A stretch of 33,114 nucleotides of DNA from Candidatus Omnitrophota bacterium (GTDB lineage Bacteria; Omnitrophota; Gorgyraeia; Tantalellales; Tantalellaceae): assembly GCA_007135805.1 (NCBI GenBank), contig SLID01000087.1:1-33114 (forward strand), read 5' to 3'. The position numbers and the translations under genes are program-made. The number at the start of each line of letters is the position of its first letter. Within the stretch, counting starts at the first letter, position 1. The notes below the pieces were generated by a model, which ran no database searches, was not told the origin of the DNA, and saw nothing but the letters and a program-made list of their open reading frames with translations. Positions 24,600-32,906 of this stretch are shown piece by piece.

Positions 24600-24686
24600 A
24601 TGCGATCTTTCAAGAACTCACTGATTTTGAAGATCATAAGCCTCCTTCTCGTAATAAGCTTCGTCAACCTTGACTTTGCCTGGGCA
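24600..24686 (+). other. N-terminal signal peptide of giant 2
   Basis: Residues 1-29 carry a basic start (MRSFKNS, Lys11), a hydrophobic core (ILKIISLLLVISFVNL) and an A-W-A end at 27-29, a plausible signal peptidase I site before Tyr30. Confidence 0.8.
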
Positions 24687-27600
24687 TATACGGAAGTTTC
24701 ATCACCGAACCGAAATCTTGCCGTATGGAGCGCCTTCCAGAAGCCCATATATTCTTCACATATTGAACCTTTAAGCGAAATTGCCGGCCGGATGGAGCTT
24801 GTTTCGGCAATAGGCGTGATCTCGGGATTCCTTTTCGGCCGTGATGGTAAAGATAAGGGCGAATTCGGCCGGCTTGCCGCTGTCTTACAGGAAAAATATG
24901 GTGATACACTTTCAAATATCGACATTAACCGTGTTTTTCCGCTTGAGTACCTGGAAGAATATAAAGATGCCCTGGAAAATAACAGGCCGATACCAAATTT
25001 CGATTATTCAAGGACTATCTCAGACAAAGATTACATTGTGATACCTTACAAACAGGCAGGGCGTACCACGCTTATTCTTGTATCTAAGAAAGGGCATGTC
25101 CCCGCTTCGGGCATAATGGGATACGAGTGGAAAAACCAGCCGCTGAAAGATTACATGATAACGGTTCTTCCTGTTGATCATGAAATACCTGAAAGCTGGG
25201 ATAAAGACGCCCGGATCGTTAAAGATAGGGAAGTGAAATACCAAGATTTGGCATCTGTTTCAAGGGTAGGACTTCCGGATTATCTAATGCCAAGTAGCAC
25301 GGAGCTTCTTGACGATATTTCGAGTTTAACATCGAGTGCACAAGAGCAACGGGATAGCAAATTCAGTCTCCGTAAACTTCTTGGTATGGCGCTGGCTTTA
25401 ACTTTTATTTTATCGACTAGCGCATTTGCGAGCGATACTAGTCAGACTTTTAGCGAAGAAATCAAGAGTTTGTGGGAAAACTTATCCCAGTTATCTAAAA
25501 TAGTGTTGATCCAGTTAGGGGTTGGCGTGGTTTTGGGGTTTGAATATTTCAAATCCATTGTCATAAAGTTGGGGCGATCAGATCCAAGTATAAAGATTGG
25601 ATATAACCACAAATTTTATTCTTTTGTTAACAATCGGGCTTTCAAATTAATTGTCTTAAGCGGTTTCTTAGGTGGTGCTGCATTAGCGGGGAATATTAGC
25701 ACTATACTAAATCCAATTATCGGCATCTTTTTTGGACTGGCTGCAGCGTCTTATTATTTGAAATATACGAGATCACGTATGGTTTCTGATGGAGGGTTAT
25801 CGTCATTTTTGGATTCGTGGATAGCTATGGGTATAATGGAGAAATTTCGTGCTATTACGATTAAAAAAGGGACTTATCCCGAGGAGTTTGTTGAATATAT
25901 AGCTGATAACTATGTCGGAGAAAGAGATGCTAATATGAGGGGATATCTCGCAAGAATGGCTGTTCAACATGCGAATGTCTCAAACATAAAAGATTTGGAA
26001 AGAATATTTAATTGGGAACTAAACTTTGAAGACAATAATTTAATGTTGATGGAAATTACAAAAGTAATCGAAGAACTTAAGCTTAAGGCTGATAGCGATT
26101 CACATCCTTTTAACGCTATTTCCGGTCTAAGGTGGGGAATTTTCTCAGGGATATTATCGTCAGGGAGTATTGCCACAGGCATTTGGCAGTATTTGGTACA
26201 AGGATCGTTAACTTATGTGACAGGCCTTGCAGTAGCCGTAGGCATGTATTTCGCATGGTCGGCTGCACGGTGCTTTTCTATGGGGTTTAGTACCTACCGA
26301 GTTATGAGAAAAACCGGTCTTACGTTCAAAGAAGCGTGGCACGCTGAGATCGCCAGCTCGGATGGGTGGAGGCATGACGCTTATGAGCGTTCAGACTTGA
26401 TAGAATTGCATGAAAGTTTTGATTCGCATTTTTGGGGAATGTTAGCGATCATGCCGCTTATAAGCGTATCATTATCAATCGCTACGAATATATGGCAGAT
26501 AAAACCGAAACTGCCGGAGGGTGTCGCGGATTATGCTGTGGCAATAGGTTGTTCTATCCAGGAAGACGGTACCGCTAGTACGCATTCCATAGCGGTTGCG
26601 GAAGAAAGTGTAAGTTTGCTTAGAGATGGCAAGGTTCGAAAGATAATATTCAGCGGAGGGAACTCACAGAATGGGATAACAGAGGCGCAAGCGATGAAGA
26701 ACTACGCTTTGCAGATATATCCTGAGGGTGCGGATCGCTTTCTTATGGATATGGCTCCAAAAGATAAATTTGGGACTGAAAAACAGATAGACGCCATACG
26801 CTATACCATAAGGGAAGATCAAGCGGACGAAAGTCTGACAGGTGTAAGTGTTATTGGCGTAGCCCAATATCTGCATGCGAGAAGAGCGATAGGTATCTTG
26901 CGGAAAAAACTGGAAAACGAGGGGGTTAACGTTTATCAGAGTCCCGCGGAAAAAAGCAAATATGAGAAGTATCCCACCCAGCCACAATTTAAGGCCGGGG
27001 AAATGGGGTTTCTTATGTGGGAAATACTAAATTTCATAAGAGTTTGGGCAATGGATGTTTTAAAGGGATTTGGTTTTTATTTTAAGGACAAATCCTACAG
27101 AAGTCCGGGTACGGTTTTCCTCGACAACAATATCGTTGTAAGCTATACCTCCGGGTGGGACCTTATCGATGAACTGACACTCCCGAGTAAAAAGGCAATA
27201 TCGGATGGTTTTAGTCAATTTAGGGCAATGCTTTCAGGTAGGGGGTTTTCGCCGGACCTTATGTCATTCGAAGTCGCGTTCGAAACGATCGAGGACGCCC
27301 GGAAACTTAAAGCGTCCGATATTTATAACGGCAATTGCACTTATCATGTCAAAAAAGTCCGCGATACTATCATCAACCTGGCGGTCAGCGATACTCCGGA
27401 TATTATATCGGATCCGAATAGTGAGTTATACGCAATAGTCACTGAGATCAAACCCCGCTATGTTAGTGTCCATCTGGGCTGGTCGGCTGAAGAGGTAGAA
27501 CTTGGACCTACCCGGGAGCATGAATATGATGTTCCCGCAAAAGGCTATGAAAACCTCGACAGGGACACACTCATGAAAAATATGGTTAAGAACATAAACG

Positions 27601-30600
27601 AACTGAAGAAAAATCTTGGGGAAATACCTCTTTTAGTCGAGATGCTGAACTATCAACCGGACGGAGCATATGAACATGTGACAGACCCCGCTTTTATAAG
27701 GGAAGTATTGAAGAGGACCGGAGTGGGTTTACTCTTTGATTGCGCGCATATGCTGGTCTCGGCCAAAAATATGGGATATACGGGTCCCGGTGCTTACATG
27801 GATTATATAAGGAAAGTTGTCGATGATGACACAGTAAAACATATACATGAAATACATCTGTCGGTCCCGGTGCCGTCTGCCCCCGGCAGTAAACACTCAT
27901 ATGATGATTTTCACCTGCCCTTTTTTACTGAGAGTGAGGCGGCCGGTGAGGTTCAAAACATATTGAGATATATCCTGGACCTTAGGACGAAGAATAATGT
28001 AACTACTCCGTTAACGGTGAATTTTGAGACCGGCATACAAAATGCGGGGAAGGAACTGCCCGTTTTGGCCGGGATATTAGGGGACTTATATGTACCCGAC
28101 AAAGAGTACCTGGATCCGGTGTTTAAAGAATTCGGCCTTGTCCCCTCGTTTACCGTTAATACTTCAAGTTTCGGCGCGAAAGATCGTGGTGATAGGGCGA
28201 TAACGAAACCGCTGAATCTGGAGGTGCCGGTTGTTTACACAGGCCTTGAAAATGAACTTGAGAGTTCCGGACTTGAGAGAGCGCCCAGAACTTTTCATTT
28301 TATGATTATCGGAGATGAAGCTTTAAAGAAAAAAGAAATGTTTTTTCTCCTTAATGACGATGCGCAAGAGATCTTGGAAGACCCCTCACTTTACGAAACT
28401 CTCGCTAAATACCATGCCGAAAGACCTGTTTCGGTGCATCTTGGCTTGGGTGTGAAAGATTTCAGGGTCAAAAGAGGGAAGCTGATGTATGAGCAATTAC
28501 CACCGGACATGACAGAATCTAAAGCCAAGGCTACGATCATCGCGAGAATTGAGCAGTTGAGATCGAATCTTCGAAAAAACAAATTGAACGATCACATTCT
28601 TTTGGAAAACTGTGATTATTTTCCGGGCAACAGATATGTGGTCGCCCCCGAATTTATCAGAGAAATAGCCCAAGCGACCGATAGCGGACTTTTGGTGGAT
28701 CTCATGCATATAGCTGCCACGGCTTTGCATGACAAACCGGAATATTCCAAAGAGTTCAATGATATGTCCCCCCTGGAATATCTCAAGGCTCTTGTCGACC
28801 GTGATAATATAAGCTCCGTGGGCGAGATACATATTGCAGTCCCGGCAATGAATGATGCGGGTGAATGGAAACATGCCAGAATGGAAGGGGCGCCTGACTT
28901 GCCTTTTCATGTTGAGAGTGACGGCGCGATCTTGGTAAAGGGGTTGTTAGCATACATCCTCGGAATGAGAAAAAAAGCCGGTGTTGAAACCCCTCTGATA
29001 ATCAATTTTGAGACCAACGATAAATTTGCCCGTGAAGATGTCGCACATTTGGCTGAATTTATAAAAGAGATAAAAGCATTAGATATGGTCTCATATGCCG
29101 AAGGCATTGACAAAGATTTTATGTCATCTTTCAGAACTCCCGAAATGGAAGGGGGGCGCCCGATATCGGCAGAGAAGAACATCTTGGAGATGTCTGACGA
29201 TGAAATACTTTCTCTGATGGATCCGAGATACGGCGAACTCAGGAAACACGCAAAAGCCGATCTTAAGTTTGCCCGGGCCATAGCTGAAGAGCTTGGTTAC
29301 AGGGACAACGAAGAGTTTATGAACAAATTGCGTGTAATAAGCCTTGCTCACGATATTGGCGGGATACTGGGATATAAGGAACATGAAGCAATTGAGTCTG
29401 GACTGCACGCGCTTATGAAAGACAAAGGGTTGGAATGGAAAGGGGTGGCCCCCGATGAATTGCTGGGAAAAATTAAAGAGAAAGGGATAGAGCTGGATCC
29501 TTCAGAAGAGATCTTTATTCCGGCGATCGATCATGCCAACAATTCTATAAGAGCGCTTGAAAAGGCAGGTATTTTTATCCCCGAAGATGTCAGATTCATA
29601 ATTTCAAGACATATGGACGAGCCCTCTGAAGATGAACTCAAGTCCTGGCCGGACGAGACAAGAGCCCTTTTCGCTATTTTCATGCTTGCTGATGTTTTTG
29701 AGTGCGGAAACAACTTTTATAAACAAAAAGGTGATTACTACAAGCATGAAAGTAAATTTGAAGACCCCAGGGATACCTTAGCTTTTATCCGTGACAAAAA
29801 AATGAGGGGTCGGGATTCTCTGAAATCTTATTTGGAAGCGGCTGAGAGGTCTTTCAGCGGAGAGAAATTCCAAAAAGCCTTGGCCTTCAGCCGGACCCCA
29901 TTGGATCAAACTTCGAGTCCTTTTGTGAAAACCGACGTGGAAATAACAAGATCTTTAGCTACACGCGCGACGCGGTCTTTTAAAAAGTTCAATGTCATCC
30001 CGAGCTACACGCTTAACGCCTCGAAGGATCCGGGCGATCCCAAAGAAGCGGTGTTCCGGCATGGTCTTGAGAGGTTCAGGTCTATCTTTGAAATGTCTGA
30101 AGTAAAAGTGCCGTTCGCGTTCGAAGATCAGTGCCGTAGCGAGGATGAAATAGACAAAATAGAAAAAGAAGATTTGTTCTCGGCGGATAAAAGAACATTG
30201 CATCTGAAAATACTTCAGGCGGAAAGCGCGGAGAAAGCAAAAACCTTGAAAGCGGGGCGGTATGAGATCAATCTTGCCGCTCAAGAGACTATGGAACTGA
30301 TAGCCAATGAGAAAAGCGTCATTTACAGGATAACGGAGAGGATGAACCCGGAATACGTAAGTCTTCATCTAAGCGCTTCGGTAGAGGACAGAAAATTTGC
30401 CACTCAGGACGCTCCTTGGGAAAGCCCTGTCCCCGGGTCGGTAGTCATCGATAGAGACGAGCTTTTACGCAGATTTTCCGAAAATATCATCATGTTCCGA
30501 AATAACCTGCGCAAAACGGGCTATAAAGGGCAGATACTTGTAGAATCCCTGGATTACCATGATTCCGGGGCGTACGAACATATTACGGAACCGTCGTTTA

Positions 30601-32906
30601 TCAAGGAGCTTTTGTATGTTGTAAATAAAGATTTTCCGAAGGGGAACGATCAGGTGGGGCTTCTTGTGGACTGCGCCCATATCGTTCTTGCCGCGCGCAA
30701 TTTAAATTTCAAAAAACTTGGGTACCATGACCCGGATCATGGTTTCATGGGGTTTGTGGAAGATATAGTTAACGGCGATACTATATCCCTTATAAAAGAG
30801 CTTCACCTTGTAGTGCCGGAATATGATGGCGTGGATAAGGAATATCAGGATACGCATCTGCCTTTCATCGCTGAGGGTCAAGGCGCGGAAGATGTAAAAA
30901 AAGTTCTTGAGCACATATTCCGTCTGAGGCGTAAGTATGGTGTGACACAGCCTTTGATCGTTAATTTCGAGTCCAATTCCATGACGGATTCCGCCGAAGA
31001 GCTGATCGCTTTAGCGGATCTCTTAGAGGGTATCGAAAGGAGACTGGCGGAAGATAGGGAGAATATGAAAACCATCCTCGATCTGGCAGAACAGGAGGAA
31101 GGTGTACCTGTCGCCGCGATGGTTTTCAATCATAAGACCGGTGAAAAAATAACAGGATTAAGGGAAAATCTGCCAGATGGGGTGGGGCATGAGCATGGGG
31201 TTGTCGACCACTGCGAAATGGTAGCTTTAAAGGAGGCCGTACGAAAAGGGTGGGACCTAACGGAGTGCACGCTTTACGTTACTATGGAAAATTGTTATCA
31301 CTGCGCAAAGGCTGTGGTCAACAATTTTCGCCCGGGACGTGTTGTTATTGGCAGTATGGATCCTTTGATCAAAGGAAGAGGAGAAGCTGTTATCAAACAC
31401 GGAAAGGTCTTTCACGAATTTGTGCCCGATCTAGATCTTCGTATCAGGGCTGAAAAAATAATTAGAGAGTTCTATGGAGAGGGACCAGCTGCTCTAGACG
31501 TTAGCTCTAGAGTTATGAATGCCGGGGATTTTGATCATGCGGTTGAAGATCCGAAAGGAGTATTGGAAGCTTGTCTTGACGGCAAAGTAGGCCCCGAAGA
31601 TGCCATGGATCTTTTTGATTGGGCCGGCTATCTTTACCTAAAGGATAACCCTGTTTTCGGGACTGACGGCCCCATGCAAATTTATTTAACTAATGCTGAC
31701 ATTTCAGTTAAAGCAATAGATGATAAGAAGAGTGTTGATAATGCTGTTCGCCATATCTTATATGCTAAAAGCAGAATTAATCCTAAAATAGACAATTTTC
31801 GTTTTGTCTTGATCGGAAGCGAAGAGAACTGCCGTAAAGTCGCCGAAAGTGTTATTAAAGAAGCACCGGCAGCGGGACTGGATAATATAGAGGGGAGATT
31901 ATACATAATGACAGATCTTGATGCGTCTCCAGTACCCGCTCAAGATATTCTGAAAAAGGACGCTGGATCGGATGGGCTGAATACCCGGGCAACCGAACTT
32001 TACGAGATCGTGGCAGAAGTCTTCAACAACCGTCGCGCGCGTATGGTGAAAGATGCCGATGACATTATCAGGGATCTTGCCGCCGAGGGCGTAAGGGGGG
32101 ATGAGATCGGCTTCGAAAAGATCGATAAGGACGCTGCCGCGGTTGTTGTTGCTGGACAAGTTAGACATGTCGTAGGCCTTGCCCGCGAATATCCTCTTAC
32201 CGGGGAACTGGATATCAAGTTGAGCGAACTTGAAGACAGCGCCGCCCGTATAATAGCTGAAAACATAATAACAAGCCTTATATCGCTTGGCCGTAATATG
32301 CCAAAAGACCATAAGGGAGTGAGGGAGCCGTTCATTTACGCCTTCGAGACAGACTGGATCCCCGGGTACGAGGACGACGCGAAAGTCAAGAACGCGATGT
32401 TCAGCATTATAAGAGAGGTGCGGGATGGAAACGGCAGGACCGGGATAGGTCAGGCTATAGCGAGTATGGGGCTGGAAAATATAAATATTGTTCATGCGGA
32501 AAGCGGCCGGCTCGCCGACGCTGTTCTTGATGCTGCGGGTGACAGGGCCGATCTTTCAAATGTCGTTATTATGGGTGGGTTGGGGACGGTAGAGAGCGCC
32601 GATTTCCGGGCAAAGCTCCTCGGCCGCGTCCCCGACCAAATGCCTTTTATCGCCGGTATTGATACGTCAAAATTCGACCCTGACGTCATAAAAGCGGGCC
32701 GGTATTATCCCGTGGATATTTTAATGCTTATGTCTCTCGCTCTTGACTTTGCCCGTGGCAGGGAGCTTAGGGGGGTACCTATAGAGTACACGGTCGATGG
32801 TGATAACAGGCGCATGATAGTTTTTGTTCCGGAAATGGCCCCGGTTGATTACCAGGCGCTGGTCGACTATAACAGGGCCCTTCTTAGGGTTTTACAAGCC
32901 GCGTGA
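24600..32906 (+). CDS. Giant exported/membrane protein with DUF218, three DUF692-like barrels, HD and deaminase-like domains
   Basis: A complete 2,768-residue frame, with start fixed by the Shine-Dalgarno at 24586 and stop TGA 32904-32906. Order by residue: signal peptide (1-29), small domain (30-250), a second signal-like segment (255-277), about six or seven membrane helices (300-635), DUF218 domain (640-790), DUF692-like barrel 1 (835-1170), barrel 2 (1177-1500), HD domain (1530-1760), barrel 3 (1797-2150), zinc deaminase-like domain (2155-2297) and a C-terminal alpha/beta region (2300-2768). DUF218 proteins such as ElyC and SanA act in envelope biogenesis; DUF692 proteins are iron oxidases that modify peptides. 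Why they are joined is unknown. The gene follows giant 1 on the same strand, separated by two hairpins, so it may have its own transcript. Base composition shifts to A+T-rich at about 25380-27060, which suggests a mosaic origin. Confidence 0.93.
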   Translation: MRSFKNSLILKIISLLLVISFVNLDFAWAYTEVSSPNRNLAVWSAFQKPIYSSHIEPLSEIAGRMELVSAIGVISGFLFGRDGKDKGEFGRLAAVLQEKYGDTLSNIDINRVFPLEYLEEYKDALENNRPIPNFDYSRTISDKDYIVIPYKQAGRTTLILVSKKGHVPASGIMGYEWKNQPLKDYMITVLPVDHEIPESWDKDARIVKDREVKYQDLASVSRVGLPDYLMPSSTELLDDISSLTSSAQEQRDSKFSLRKLLGMALALTFILSTSAFASDTSQTFSEEIKSLWENLSQLSKIVLIQLGVGVVLGFEYFKSIVIKLGRSDPSIKIGYNHKFYSFVNNRAFKLIVLSGFLGGAALAGNISTILNPIIGIFFGLAAASYYLKYTRSRMVSDGGLSSFLDSWIAMGIMEKFRAITIKKGTYPEEFVEYIADNYVGERDANMRGYLARMAVQHANVSNIKDLERIFNWELNFEDNNLMLMEITKVIEELKLKADSDSHPFNAISGLRWGIFSGILSSGSIATGIWQYLVQGSLTYVTGLAVAVGMYFAWSAARCFSMGFSTYRVMRKTGLTFKEAWHAEIASSDGWRHDAYERSDLIELHESFDSHFWGMLAIMPLISVSLSIATNIWQIKPKLPEGVADYAVAIGCSIQEDGTASTHSIAVAEESVSLLRDGKVRKIIFSGGNSQNGITEAQAMKNYALQIYPEGADRFLMDMAPKDKFGTEKQIDAIRYTIREDQADESLTGVSVIGVAQYLHARRAIGILRKKLENEGVNVYQSPAEKSKYEKYPTQPQFKAGEMGFLMWEILNFIRVWAMDVLKGFGFYFKDKSYRSPGTVFLDNNIVVSYTSGWDLIDELTLPSKKAISDGFSQFRAMLSGRGFSPDLMSFEVAFETIEDARKLKASDIYNGNCTYHVKKVRDTIINLAVSDTPDIISDPNSELYAIVTEIKPRYVSVHLGWSAEEVELGPTREHEYDVPAKGYENLDRDTLMKNMVKNINELKKNLGEIPLLVEMLNYQPDGAYEHVTDPAFIREVLKRTGVGLLFDCAHMLVSAKNMGYTGPGAYMDYIRKVVDDDTVKHIHEIHLSVPVPSAPGSKHSYDDFHLPFFTESEAAGEVQNILRYILDLRTKNNVTTPLTVNFETGIQNAGKELPVLAGILGDLYVPDKEYLDPVFKEFGLVPSFTVNTSSFGAKDRGDRAITKPLNLEVPVVYTGLENELESSGLERAPRTFHFMIIGDEALKKKEMFFLLNDDAQEILEDPSLYETLAKYHAERPVSVHLGLGVKDFRVKRGKLMYEQLPPDMTESKAKATIIARIEQLRSNLRKNKLNDHILLENCDYFPGNRYVVAPEFIREIAQATDSGLLVDLMHIAATALHDKPEYSKEFNDMSPLEYLKALVDRDNISSVGEIHIAVPAMNDAGEWKHARMEGAPDLPFHVESDGAILVKGLLAYILGMRKKAGVETPLIINFETNDKFAREDVAHLAEFIKEIKALDMVSYAEGIDKDFMSSFRTPEMEGGRPISAEKNILEMSDDEILSLMDPRYGELRKHAKADLKFARAIAEELGYRDNEEFMNKLRVISLAHDIGGILGYKEHEAIESGLHALMKDKGLEWKGVAPDELLGKIKEKGIELDPSEEIFIPAIDHANNSIRALEKAGIFIPEDVRFIISRHMDEPSEDELKSWPDETRALFAIFMLADVFECGNNFYKQKGDYYKHESKFEDPRDTLAFIRDKKMRGRDSLKSYLEAAERSFSGEKFQKALAFSRTPLDQTSSPFVKTDVEITRSLATRATRSFKKFNVIPSYTLNASKDPGDPKEAVFRHGLERFRSIFEMSEVKVPFAFEDQCRSEDEIDKIEKEDLFSADKRTLHLKILQAESAEKAKTLKAGRYEINLAAQETMELIANEKSVIYRITERMNPEYVSLHLSASVEDRKFATQDAPWESPVPGSVVIDRDELLRRFSENIIMFRNNLRKTGYKGQILVESLDYHDSGAYEHITEPSFIKELLYVVNKDFPKGNDQVGLLVDCAHIVLAARNLNFKKLGYHDPDHGFMGFVEDIVNGDTISLIKELHLVVPEYDGVDKEYQDTHLPFIAEGQGAEDVKKVLEHIFRLRRKYGVTQPLIVNFESNSMTDSAEELIALADLLEGIERRLAEDRENMKTILDLAEQEEGVPVAAMVFNHKTGEKITGLRENLPDGVGHEHGVVDHCEMVALKEAVRKGWDLTECTLYVTMENCYHCAKAVVNNFRPGRVVIGSMDPLIKGRGEAVIKHGKVFHEFVPDLDLRIRAEKIIREFYGEGPAALDVSSRVMNAGDFDHAVEDPKGVLEACLDGKVGPEDAMDLFDWAGYLYLKDNPVFGTDGPMQIYLTNADISVKAIDDKKSVDNAVRHILYAKSRINPKIDNFRFVLIGSEENCRKVAESVIKEAPAAGLDNIEGRLYIMTDLDASPVPAQDILKKDAGSDGLNTRATELYEIVAEVFNNRRARMVKDADDIIRDLAAEGVRGDEIGFEKIDKDAAAVVVAGQVRHVVGLAREYPLTGELDIKLSELEDSAARIIAENIITSLISLGRNMPKDHKGVREPFIYAFETDWIPGYEDDAKVKNAMFSIIREVRDGNGRTGIGQAIASMGLENINIVHAESGRLADAVLDAAGDRADLSNVVIMGGLGTVESADFRAKLLGRVPDQMPFIAGIDTSKFDPDVIKAGRYYPVDILMLMSLALDFARGRELRGVPIEYTVDGDNRRMIVFVPEMAPVDYQALVDYNRALLRVLQAA
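25362..25430 (+). other. Internal signal-peptide-like segment in giant 2
   Basis: Residues about 255-277 read as a second complete signal peptide: basic KFSLRK, hydrophobic LLGMALALTFILSTS, then A-F-A at 275-277 followed by SDTSQ. An internal Met263 sits in it. No Shine-Dalgarno of note precedes it, so separate translation is not supported. It may be a cleaved or retained membrane segment, and hints that two once-separate genes were fused here. Confidence 0.6.
25500..26500 (+). other. Polytopic membrane module of giant 2
   Basis: Hydrophobic segments at about 25500-25550 (IVLIQLGVGVVLGFEYF), 25640-25765 (two helices, with LSGFLGGAALAG and IIGIFFGLAAASYYL), 26130-26280 (two helices, with GLAVAVGMYFAWSAA) and 26430-26500 (MLAIMPLISVSLSIATN). 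An amphipathic region of about 110 residues separates the second and third pairs. The module leads directly into the DUF218 domain, the arrangement seen in membrane-anchored ElyC-like proteins. Confidence 0.6.
26520..26960 (+). other. DUF218 (ElyC/SanA/YdcF-like) domain
   Basis: Residues about 641-787 follow the family pattern: ADYAVAIGCSIQEDGTAS with S-IAVAEESVSLLRDGKVR, then KIIFSGGNS, TEAQAMKNYA, an FGTEKQIDAI segment corresponding to the usual S-x-N-T-x-E-N, and a VSVIGVAQYLHARRA strand-helix matching the usual V-T-x-x-Y-H-x-x-R. Members affect envelope and peptidoglycan metabolism; the biochemical reaction is poorly defined. Confidence 0.72.
27100..28105 (+). other. DUF692 (MNIO)-like TIM barrel, copy 1
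   Basis: Key matches to the DUF692 pattern: YVSVHLGWS (His958, 27471-27473), LDRDTLMKNMVKNINELKKN, LLVEMLNY (Glu), DPAFIREVLKRTGVGLLFDC with Asp1047 (27738-27740) and the SAKNMGY tail, EIHLSVPV (His), DDFHLPFF with His1105 (27912-27914), and LTVNFET (Glu). These correspond to the metal-ligand strands of multinuclear iron oxidases, though the E in the usual SEHLAW is Val here. A xylose-isomerase-like barrel is the alternative. Confidence 0.68.
28130..29100 (+). other. DUF692 (MNIO)-like TIM barrel, copy 2 (ligand set degraded)
   Basis: Same strand order as copy 1: PVSVHLGLGV (His1280), HILLENCDYF, APEFIREIAQATDSGLLVDL with Asp1367 (28698-28700), GEIHIAVP and LIINFET. The D-x-H motif expected before the LPF stretch is missing: the equivalent reads APDLPFHV. 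The usual N-rich loop after the Asp strand is MHIAATALHD. Probably a structural or partly inactive copy. Confidence 0.6.
29190..29890 (+). other. HD phosphohydrolase-like domain between barrels 2 and 3
   Basis: Residues about 1530-1760. The HD pattern is complete: RKHAKADLKFARAIAEELG (first His), ISLAHDIGG with His1584-Asp1585 (29349-29354), DHANNSIRALEKAGI, FIISRHMDEP, and FAIFMLADVFE for the final Asp. The helical spacing is close to HD/HD-GYP proteins but the GYP loop is not seen. Such domains hydrolyse phosphate esters or nucleotides; no substrate can be named. Confidence 0.68.
29990..31050 (+). other. DUF692 (MNIO)-like TIM barrel, copy 3
   Basis: Residues about 1797-2150. Contains YVSLHLSASV (His1923), IDRDELLRRFSENI, QILVESLDYHD, ITEPSFIKELL, GLLVDCAHIVLAARNL with Asp2024 (30669-30671), ELHLVVPE, QDTHLPFI with the D-T-H motif (His2086, 30855-30857), and LIVNFES. 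It is closest to copy 1 in its presumed metal positions and keeps the D-x-H that copy 2 lost. Confidence 0.66.
31070..31490 (+). other. Zinc-dependent deaminase-like domain (RibD/dCMP deaminase type)
   Basis: VAAMVFNHKTGEKITG is followed by DHCEMVALKEA, where His2204 (31209-31211) and Glu2206 (31215-31217) fit the H-x-E site, and by ATLYVT-like TLYVTMENCYHC with Cys2232 and Cys2235 (31293-31304) as the C-x-x-C ligands. VVIGSMDPLIKGRGEAVI matches the strand and DP-x-x-x-GRG loop of RibD-type enzymes. The middle residue of the H-x-E site is Cys rather than the usual Ala or Val, and the Pro before the first Cys is Asn. Zinc ligands and the catalytic Glu are all present, so activity is plausible. 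No reductase domain follows. Confidence 0.72.
31900..32903 (+). other. C-terminal alpha/beta region of giant 2
   Basis: Helical RARMVKDADDIIRDL and VVVAGQVRHVVGLAREY parts lead to a strand-helix domain (FIYAFETDWIPG, NINIVHAE, NVVIMGGLG, PFIAGIDTS, MIVFVPEM). The tail MAPVDYQALVDYNRALLRVL resembles the tail of giant 1. No known family recognised; perhaps a domain shared by large proteins of this lineage. Confidence 0.45.

Follow-up and report, generated by a model that had tools for sequence, protein, structure and literature searches.

The locus described here raises the question of whether one large protein of an Omnitrophota bacterium carries three MNIO (DUF692) enzymes and, if not, what its three barrels are. 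A preliminary description made from the sequence had placed three DUF692/MNIO-like barrels in tandem in a single exported or membrane protein and regarded the arrangement as unlike the described systems. The window, meaning the whole stretch of DNA that was analysed, is an entire contig of 33,114 bases (G000:C43) from a 1.63 Mb genome assembled in 137 contigs and 90% complete. Two long ORFs are present: the first, with at least 8134 aa, is open at its 5' edge, and the second, hereafter P0001, has 2768 aa and contains the barrels (Table 1). The former (3–24407) shows sequence repeats towards its N-terminal end, contains a region like outer-membrane efflux proteins (PF02321) and is predicted to have 13 hydrophobic segments.

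Table 1. Features of P0001 by position in the window
Feature	Positions	Strand	Evidence
Mosaic protein P0001, ORF of 2768 aa	24600..32906	+	ATG-started open frame; AGGAGG-like site just 5' of the ATG
Signal-peptide-like N-terminal segment, then LAxxS motif (NLAVWSAFQ, ~aa 39–47)	24600..24689	+	KD peak 2.23 at aa 8–26
DUF218 domain (PF02698), aa 663–778	26586..26933	+	E 1.3e-7, 32.1 bits vs cut-off 27.6
Barrel 1, aa 835–1165	27102..28094	+	PF05114 E 4.8e-11; ligand map; AlphaFold2 model
Barrel 2, aa 1166–1480	28095..29039	+	PF05114 E 4.6e-6; ligand map
HD domain (PF01966), between barrels 2 and 3	29262..29879	+	E 5e-5, 24 bits vs cut-off 22; profile match covers ~29262–29420, remaining extent assigned by eye
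Barrel 3, aa 1785–2125	29952..30974	+	BLASTP to barrel 1 E 3e-49; ligand map
TadA/CDA-type deaminase domain, aa 2153–2251	31056..31352	+	PF00383 E 1.6e-12
C-terminal ETDWIPG domain, end ...LQAA	32220..32903	+	Alignment of related tails; predicted model

All three barrels were found in P0001. The term tandem applies to barrels 1 and 2, which are adjacent, but not to barrels 2 and 3, which are separated by an HD domain. The preliminary description had also missed the DUF218, HD, TadA-like deaminase and C-terminal domains, some of which lie beyond the range it gave. The HD domain residues H, HD, H, H and D are legible in the sequence, and the HCE and C..C zinc residues of the deaminase domain are intact; among PDB entries the latter domain matched 3ocq and TadA chains (E 1e-8 to 2e-8). 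The signal-peptide-like N-terminal segment and several hydrophobic segments agree with the earlier suggestion of an exported or membrane protein, and P0001 is probably exported, judging by its hydrophobic N-terminus. This N-terminus can be aligned with that of a protein from a genome of the same Omnitrophota family (G003). A second signal-peptide-like stretch was observed within P0001 at 25371–25439 (aa 258–280, ...LTFILSTSAFAS), as though two exported proteins had fused. With regard to a defence role, PADLOC returned a weak match to a dCTP deaminase model and nothing more.

The three barrels are homologous to one another, with BLASTP E values of 3e-26 between barrels 1 and 2 and 1e-24 between barrels 2 and 3, in addition to that between barrels 1 and 3. 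Since pairwise identity is just 28–34%, assembly duplication was ruled out as the source of the three copies. The MNIO/DUF692 profile PF05114 matched P0001 as a whole in two stretches (E 7.6e-19) and exceeded its 25-bit cut-off for barrels 1 (42.9 bits) and 2 (26.5 bits) taken singly; barrel 3 alone had no Pfam match but is homologous to barrel 1. The xylose-isomerase-like profile PF01261 scored 20.6 bits, under its own cut-off, against 43 bits for PF05114, and the metal ligands are conserved (below), so the profiles do not favour another TIM-barrel family without a metal site. The best NCBIfam match was to the bufferin maturase BufB (E 4.7e-17), far under the cut-off of that model. The barrels of P0001 are the sole PF05114 matches within their own 90%-complete genome. 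Sequence searches of the PDB gave marginal matches only, to the DUF692 protein 3bww and to MbnB, and a genome-collection scan with barrel 1 as query returned no relative.

The fold of barrel 1 was predicted with AlphaFold2 (pLDDT 78, pTM 0.84) and resembles a xylose-isomerase-like TIM barrel, with Z scores of 18–20 and rmsd values of ~3.0–4.2 over ~245–256 residues. An overlay on MbnB had been proposed earlier; the model did match MbnB (7tcw, Z 19.2), but sugar isomerases and epimerases matched it equally well (IolI 19.4, epimerases ~18), with endonuclease IV at 18.0. Because MbnB and the sugar isomerases were not separated, the structure comparison was not used to pick among families.

The putative metal site was mapped from an alignment of the three P0001 barrels with one barrel each from three other Omnitrophota genomes (G003, G014 and G045), the six barrels being 24–43% identical. 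The reference was TglH, which binds three irons through H71, H107, E151, D184, H216 and E258 (sites 1 and 2) and D184, N187, D229 and H231 (site 3) (PMC10880893). Seven of these nine ligand columns are invariant in the six barrels (H71, H107, E151, D184, H216, E258 and the N187 column), compared with 25 invariant columns among 245 ungapped columns overall (hypergeometric P 1.6e-6). The six ligand columns of sites 1 and 2 are thus unchanged in the three copies and the three relatives. At the position of the site-3 Asn (TglH N187, HvfB N175), all six barrels have His, giving D-x-x-H as in endonuclease IV. The D-x-H pair corresponding to TglH D229 and H231 is kept in barrels 1 and 3 and in the G003 and G045 barrels, and is absent from barrel 2 and the G014 barrel.

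The putative ligands are H916, H958, E1014, D1047, H1050, H1086, D1103, H1105 and E1143 in barrel 1, and H1868, H1923, E1982, D2024, H2027, H2069, D2084, H2086 and E2124 in barrel 3. Barrel 2 has H1233, H1280, E1336, D1367, H1370, H1411 and E1471, and its D-x-H is replaced, the aligned residues being H1425 and D1433; the earlier statement that copies 1 and 3 keep this motif and copy 2 does not was therefore correct. In the barrel 1 model, the ligand residues are predicted at, or adjoining, the ends of strands beta2 to beta8, as read from strand boundaries rather than distances. Endonuclease IV has a nine-ligand trimetal pattern with DxxH. Barrels 1 and 3, with nine candidate ligands (H, H, E, D, H, H, D, H, E), would form a three-metal site of this type, while barrel 2 would retain the two-metal part and lack the D-x-H pair, a loss common to another genus.

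When the barrels of the giant-protein type were compared with other families by profile, single-domain barrels were nearest (E 3.5e-23), followed by canonical MNIOs (2.2e-12) and endonuclease IV (1e-5, probability 82), these values being from small alignments. In a tree with few canonical rows and long branches, the three canonical MNIOs formed a clade of their own (support 99/97) that held none of the giant-protein barrels, which were themselves grouped with support of 63/71. Barrel 1 paired with the G003 barrel (94/92) and barrel 2 with the G014 barrel (91/89); copies 1 and 2 therefore probably split before these genera did. Taken from their sequences, the P0001 barrels are probably an old, diverged metal-binding branch, related to the MNIO/DUF692 enzymes and outside them. 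The MNIO identity given in the preliminary description thus holds for the profile match and the metal ligands, but not for the DxNN Asn, which is absent, nor for clade membership, and single-domain barrels from glycan-type clusters are closer. Three tandem MNIO enzymes is too strong a label for P0001.

Barrels of this type within large ORFs were found in 4 of 384 class genomes, with three in the source genome and one in each of the others, so the placement of a barrel in a large Omnitrophota ORF is not unique. A phylum-wide draw of 384 genomes, which overlaps the first, gave no further giant-protein barrel. The G045 barrel belongs to a 21,496-aa open frame in which DUF218 and TPR repeats were found as well. 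This frame (L012–L015, G045:C16:1-64491) runs across the whole contig and includes a beta-propeller-like region.

The nearest relatives by profile are single-domain proteins of 250–290 aa, and their genes adjoin those for radical SAM, NeuB, DegT aminotransferase, SDR, WbqC and AMP-binding proteins. This context is that of glycan-type rather than RiPP clusters. Several of these loci (L016, L017, L022 and L025) carry single-domain, MNIO-related DxxH barrels within NeuB/DegT/SDR/WbqC/radical SAM clusters, and from sequence they are possibly an unrecognised family of sugar enzymes. An assignment of the single-domain barrels beside SDR genes to PtmF of the legionaminic acid pathway was dropped, PtmF being listed as a 326-aa oxidoreductase (PMC4481668).

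The explanation that we favour, at a probability of about one in two, is that the barrels are a metal-binding branch of the xylose-isomerase-like superfamily carried as cargo of a mosaic protein, and that they would act as metal-dependent enzymes on sugars or glycan intermediates rather than as O2-dependent peptide oxidases. Several points stand against it. PF05114 is still the best library match and is compatible with an oxidase, barrel 3 is without a library match of its own, and what surrounds the genes of single-domain relatives may not apply to fused barrels.

The first alternative takes the barrels for genuine MNIO oxidases with a diiron or triiron centre, which oxidise peptide side chains, with the substrate or partner elsewhere or in the same polypeptide. 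P0001 resembles the known members (MbnB, TglH, HvfB and BufB) in its fold, in an E-x-H on beta6, in the site-1 and site-2 ligands, all of which are kept, and in its PF05114 and BufB matches; moreover, MbnB and HvfB are active with a diiron centre that occupies sites 1 and 2 (PMC13419390). It differs in having barrels within a 2768-aa mosaic protein, outside the canonical clade, and in the His that replaces the site-3 Asn in six of six barrels, while the N175A variant of HvfB is inactive (PMC13419390). Neither the DUF2063 partner (PF09836) nor the terminal oxidases COX1 and cyt bd were found in the 90%-complete source genome. Together with the glycan-type clusters of the closest relatives, the changed Asn and these missing genes are the reasons that an O2-dependent MNIO reaction is not favoured, and we consider it unlikely. 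The missing oxidases may nevertheless reflect assembly gaps, and O2 may be usable without respiration.

According to the second alternative, which we find slightly more doubtful again, the barrels have no catalytic role and serve a large surface protein as binding or structural modules. An adhesin or coat role has been proposed for giant proteins of Omnitrophota (PMC10066038), and barrel 2 has lost part of its site, both of which agree with such modules. Against this, few residues of the barrels are as conserved as the metal ligands, and the zinc residues of the deaminase and those of the HD domain are intact. P0001 is like the giant ORFs of that study in its great length, its probable membrane association or export and its phylum, but few annotated domains were reported there (PMC10066038), whereas in P0001 several enzyme domains have their motifs intact and the C-terminal domain is one that other long ORFs share.

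The least plausible alternative is an endonuclease IV-like (AP_endonuc_2, PF01261) trizinc phosphodiesterase or nuclease, perhaps acting with the HD and TadA-like domains as a nucleotide- or nucleic-acid-degrading assembly, which accords with the shared fold (Z 18) and with the nine-ligand DxxH and D-x-H pattern of barrels 1 and 3 (L033 aligned) but not with the absence of that pattern and its D-x-H pair from barrel 2, the MNIO-type E-x-H, or a profile similarity much weaker than that to MNIOs or single-domain relatives.

The setting of the barrels is a frame that P0001 shares with other proteins. Its last 230 residues, the ETDWIPG domain, have no Pfam match and no meaningful NCBIfam match. 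The domain was found in 39 of 292 class genomes across several Omnitrophota families, with up to ten copies per genome and nine in the source genome, and almost every copy closes a long ORF. The upstream ORF (at least 8134 aa) showed no sign of it, its last 43 residues scoring 0.2 bits. Of 34 distinct tails, 27 end in A compared with 6 of 42 other ORFs (Fisher 8.9e-9), and 18 end in AA compared with 1 of 42 (Fisher 2.5e-7), both tests being indicative only as the sequences are related. A hydrophobic, signal-like N-terminus was present in 12 of 14 carriers, the two exceptions being at contig edges, and in 12 of 33 other ORFs. The LAxxS motif follows the signal segment, with small variations, in P0001 and in 8 of 12 other N-terminally complete carriers.

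Between these ends the cargo varies, and includes phosphodiester glycosidase, M20 peptidase, M23 peptidase, HEAT repeats and GNAT. A paralogue of 2953 aa in the source genome (L146:3572-12430, G000:C102) also ends in an ETDWIPG-type domain, and its cargo comprises three radical SAM domains with B12-binding, SPASM, glycosyltransferase and methyltransferase domains. The predicted ETDWIPG model is alpha/beta (pLDDT 91). It had no Foldseek match among solved structures at E <0.001, and the best VIA Z was 4.7; no known fold was identified for the model, and absence of a match is no proof of a new fold.

The ETDWIPG domain thus appears to be previously undescribed, and the frame to define a lineage-specific set of multi-enzyme Omnitrophota proteins. 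The frame consists of a signal-peptide-like N-terminus with LAxxS, enzyme cargo that differs between proteins (DUF218, three barrels, HD and deaminase in P0001) and the lineage-specific C-terminal domain, which probably serves sorting, anchoring or processing. A tentative extension, to which we give clearly less weight than to the favoured glycan-enzyme reading, is an undescribed packaging scheme in which the signal peptide, LAxxS and the Ala-ending ETDWIPG domain label mosaic proteins to be exported, displayed on the surface or delivered into another cell. The triple barrel would be one such cargo, with a specialised two-metal copy between two three-metal copies. Radical SAM enzymes are normally cytosolic. 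As cargo of this type occurs in paralogues, delivery into another cell, or an intracellular role, is possible.

In secretion systems with C-terminal sorting domains, such as the T9SS, a conserved domain likewise ends varied exported cargo; the T9SS domain is a beta-sandwich (PMC11285876), whereas that of P0001 is predicted as alpha/beta without a convincing match, and a role in transport would be by analogy. Since the ETDWIPG domain is common to dozens of mosaic enzymes, it suggests a common route or fate and offers a handle on the role of giant proteins in Omnitrophota. With the barrels, the relatives of the MNIO enzymes would in turn include a branch whose site resembles that of endonuclease IV, which makes it possible to study the divergence within this superfamily of iron oxidases, sugar isomerases and zinc nucleases.

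Among the sampled relatives, one locus in another Omnitrophota genome (L003, G024:C37) had a PF05114 match far above the others (E 1.6e-108). It lies on a 3.3-kb contig and is perhaps the result of binning contamination or recent transfer.
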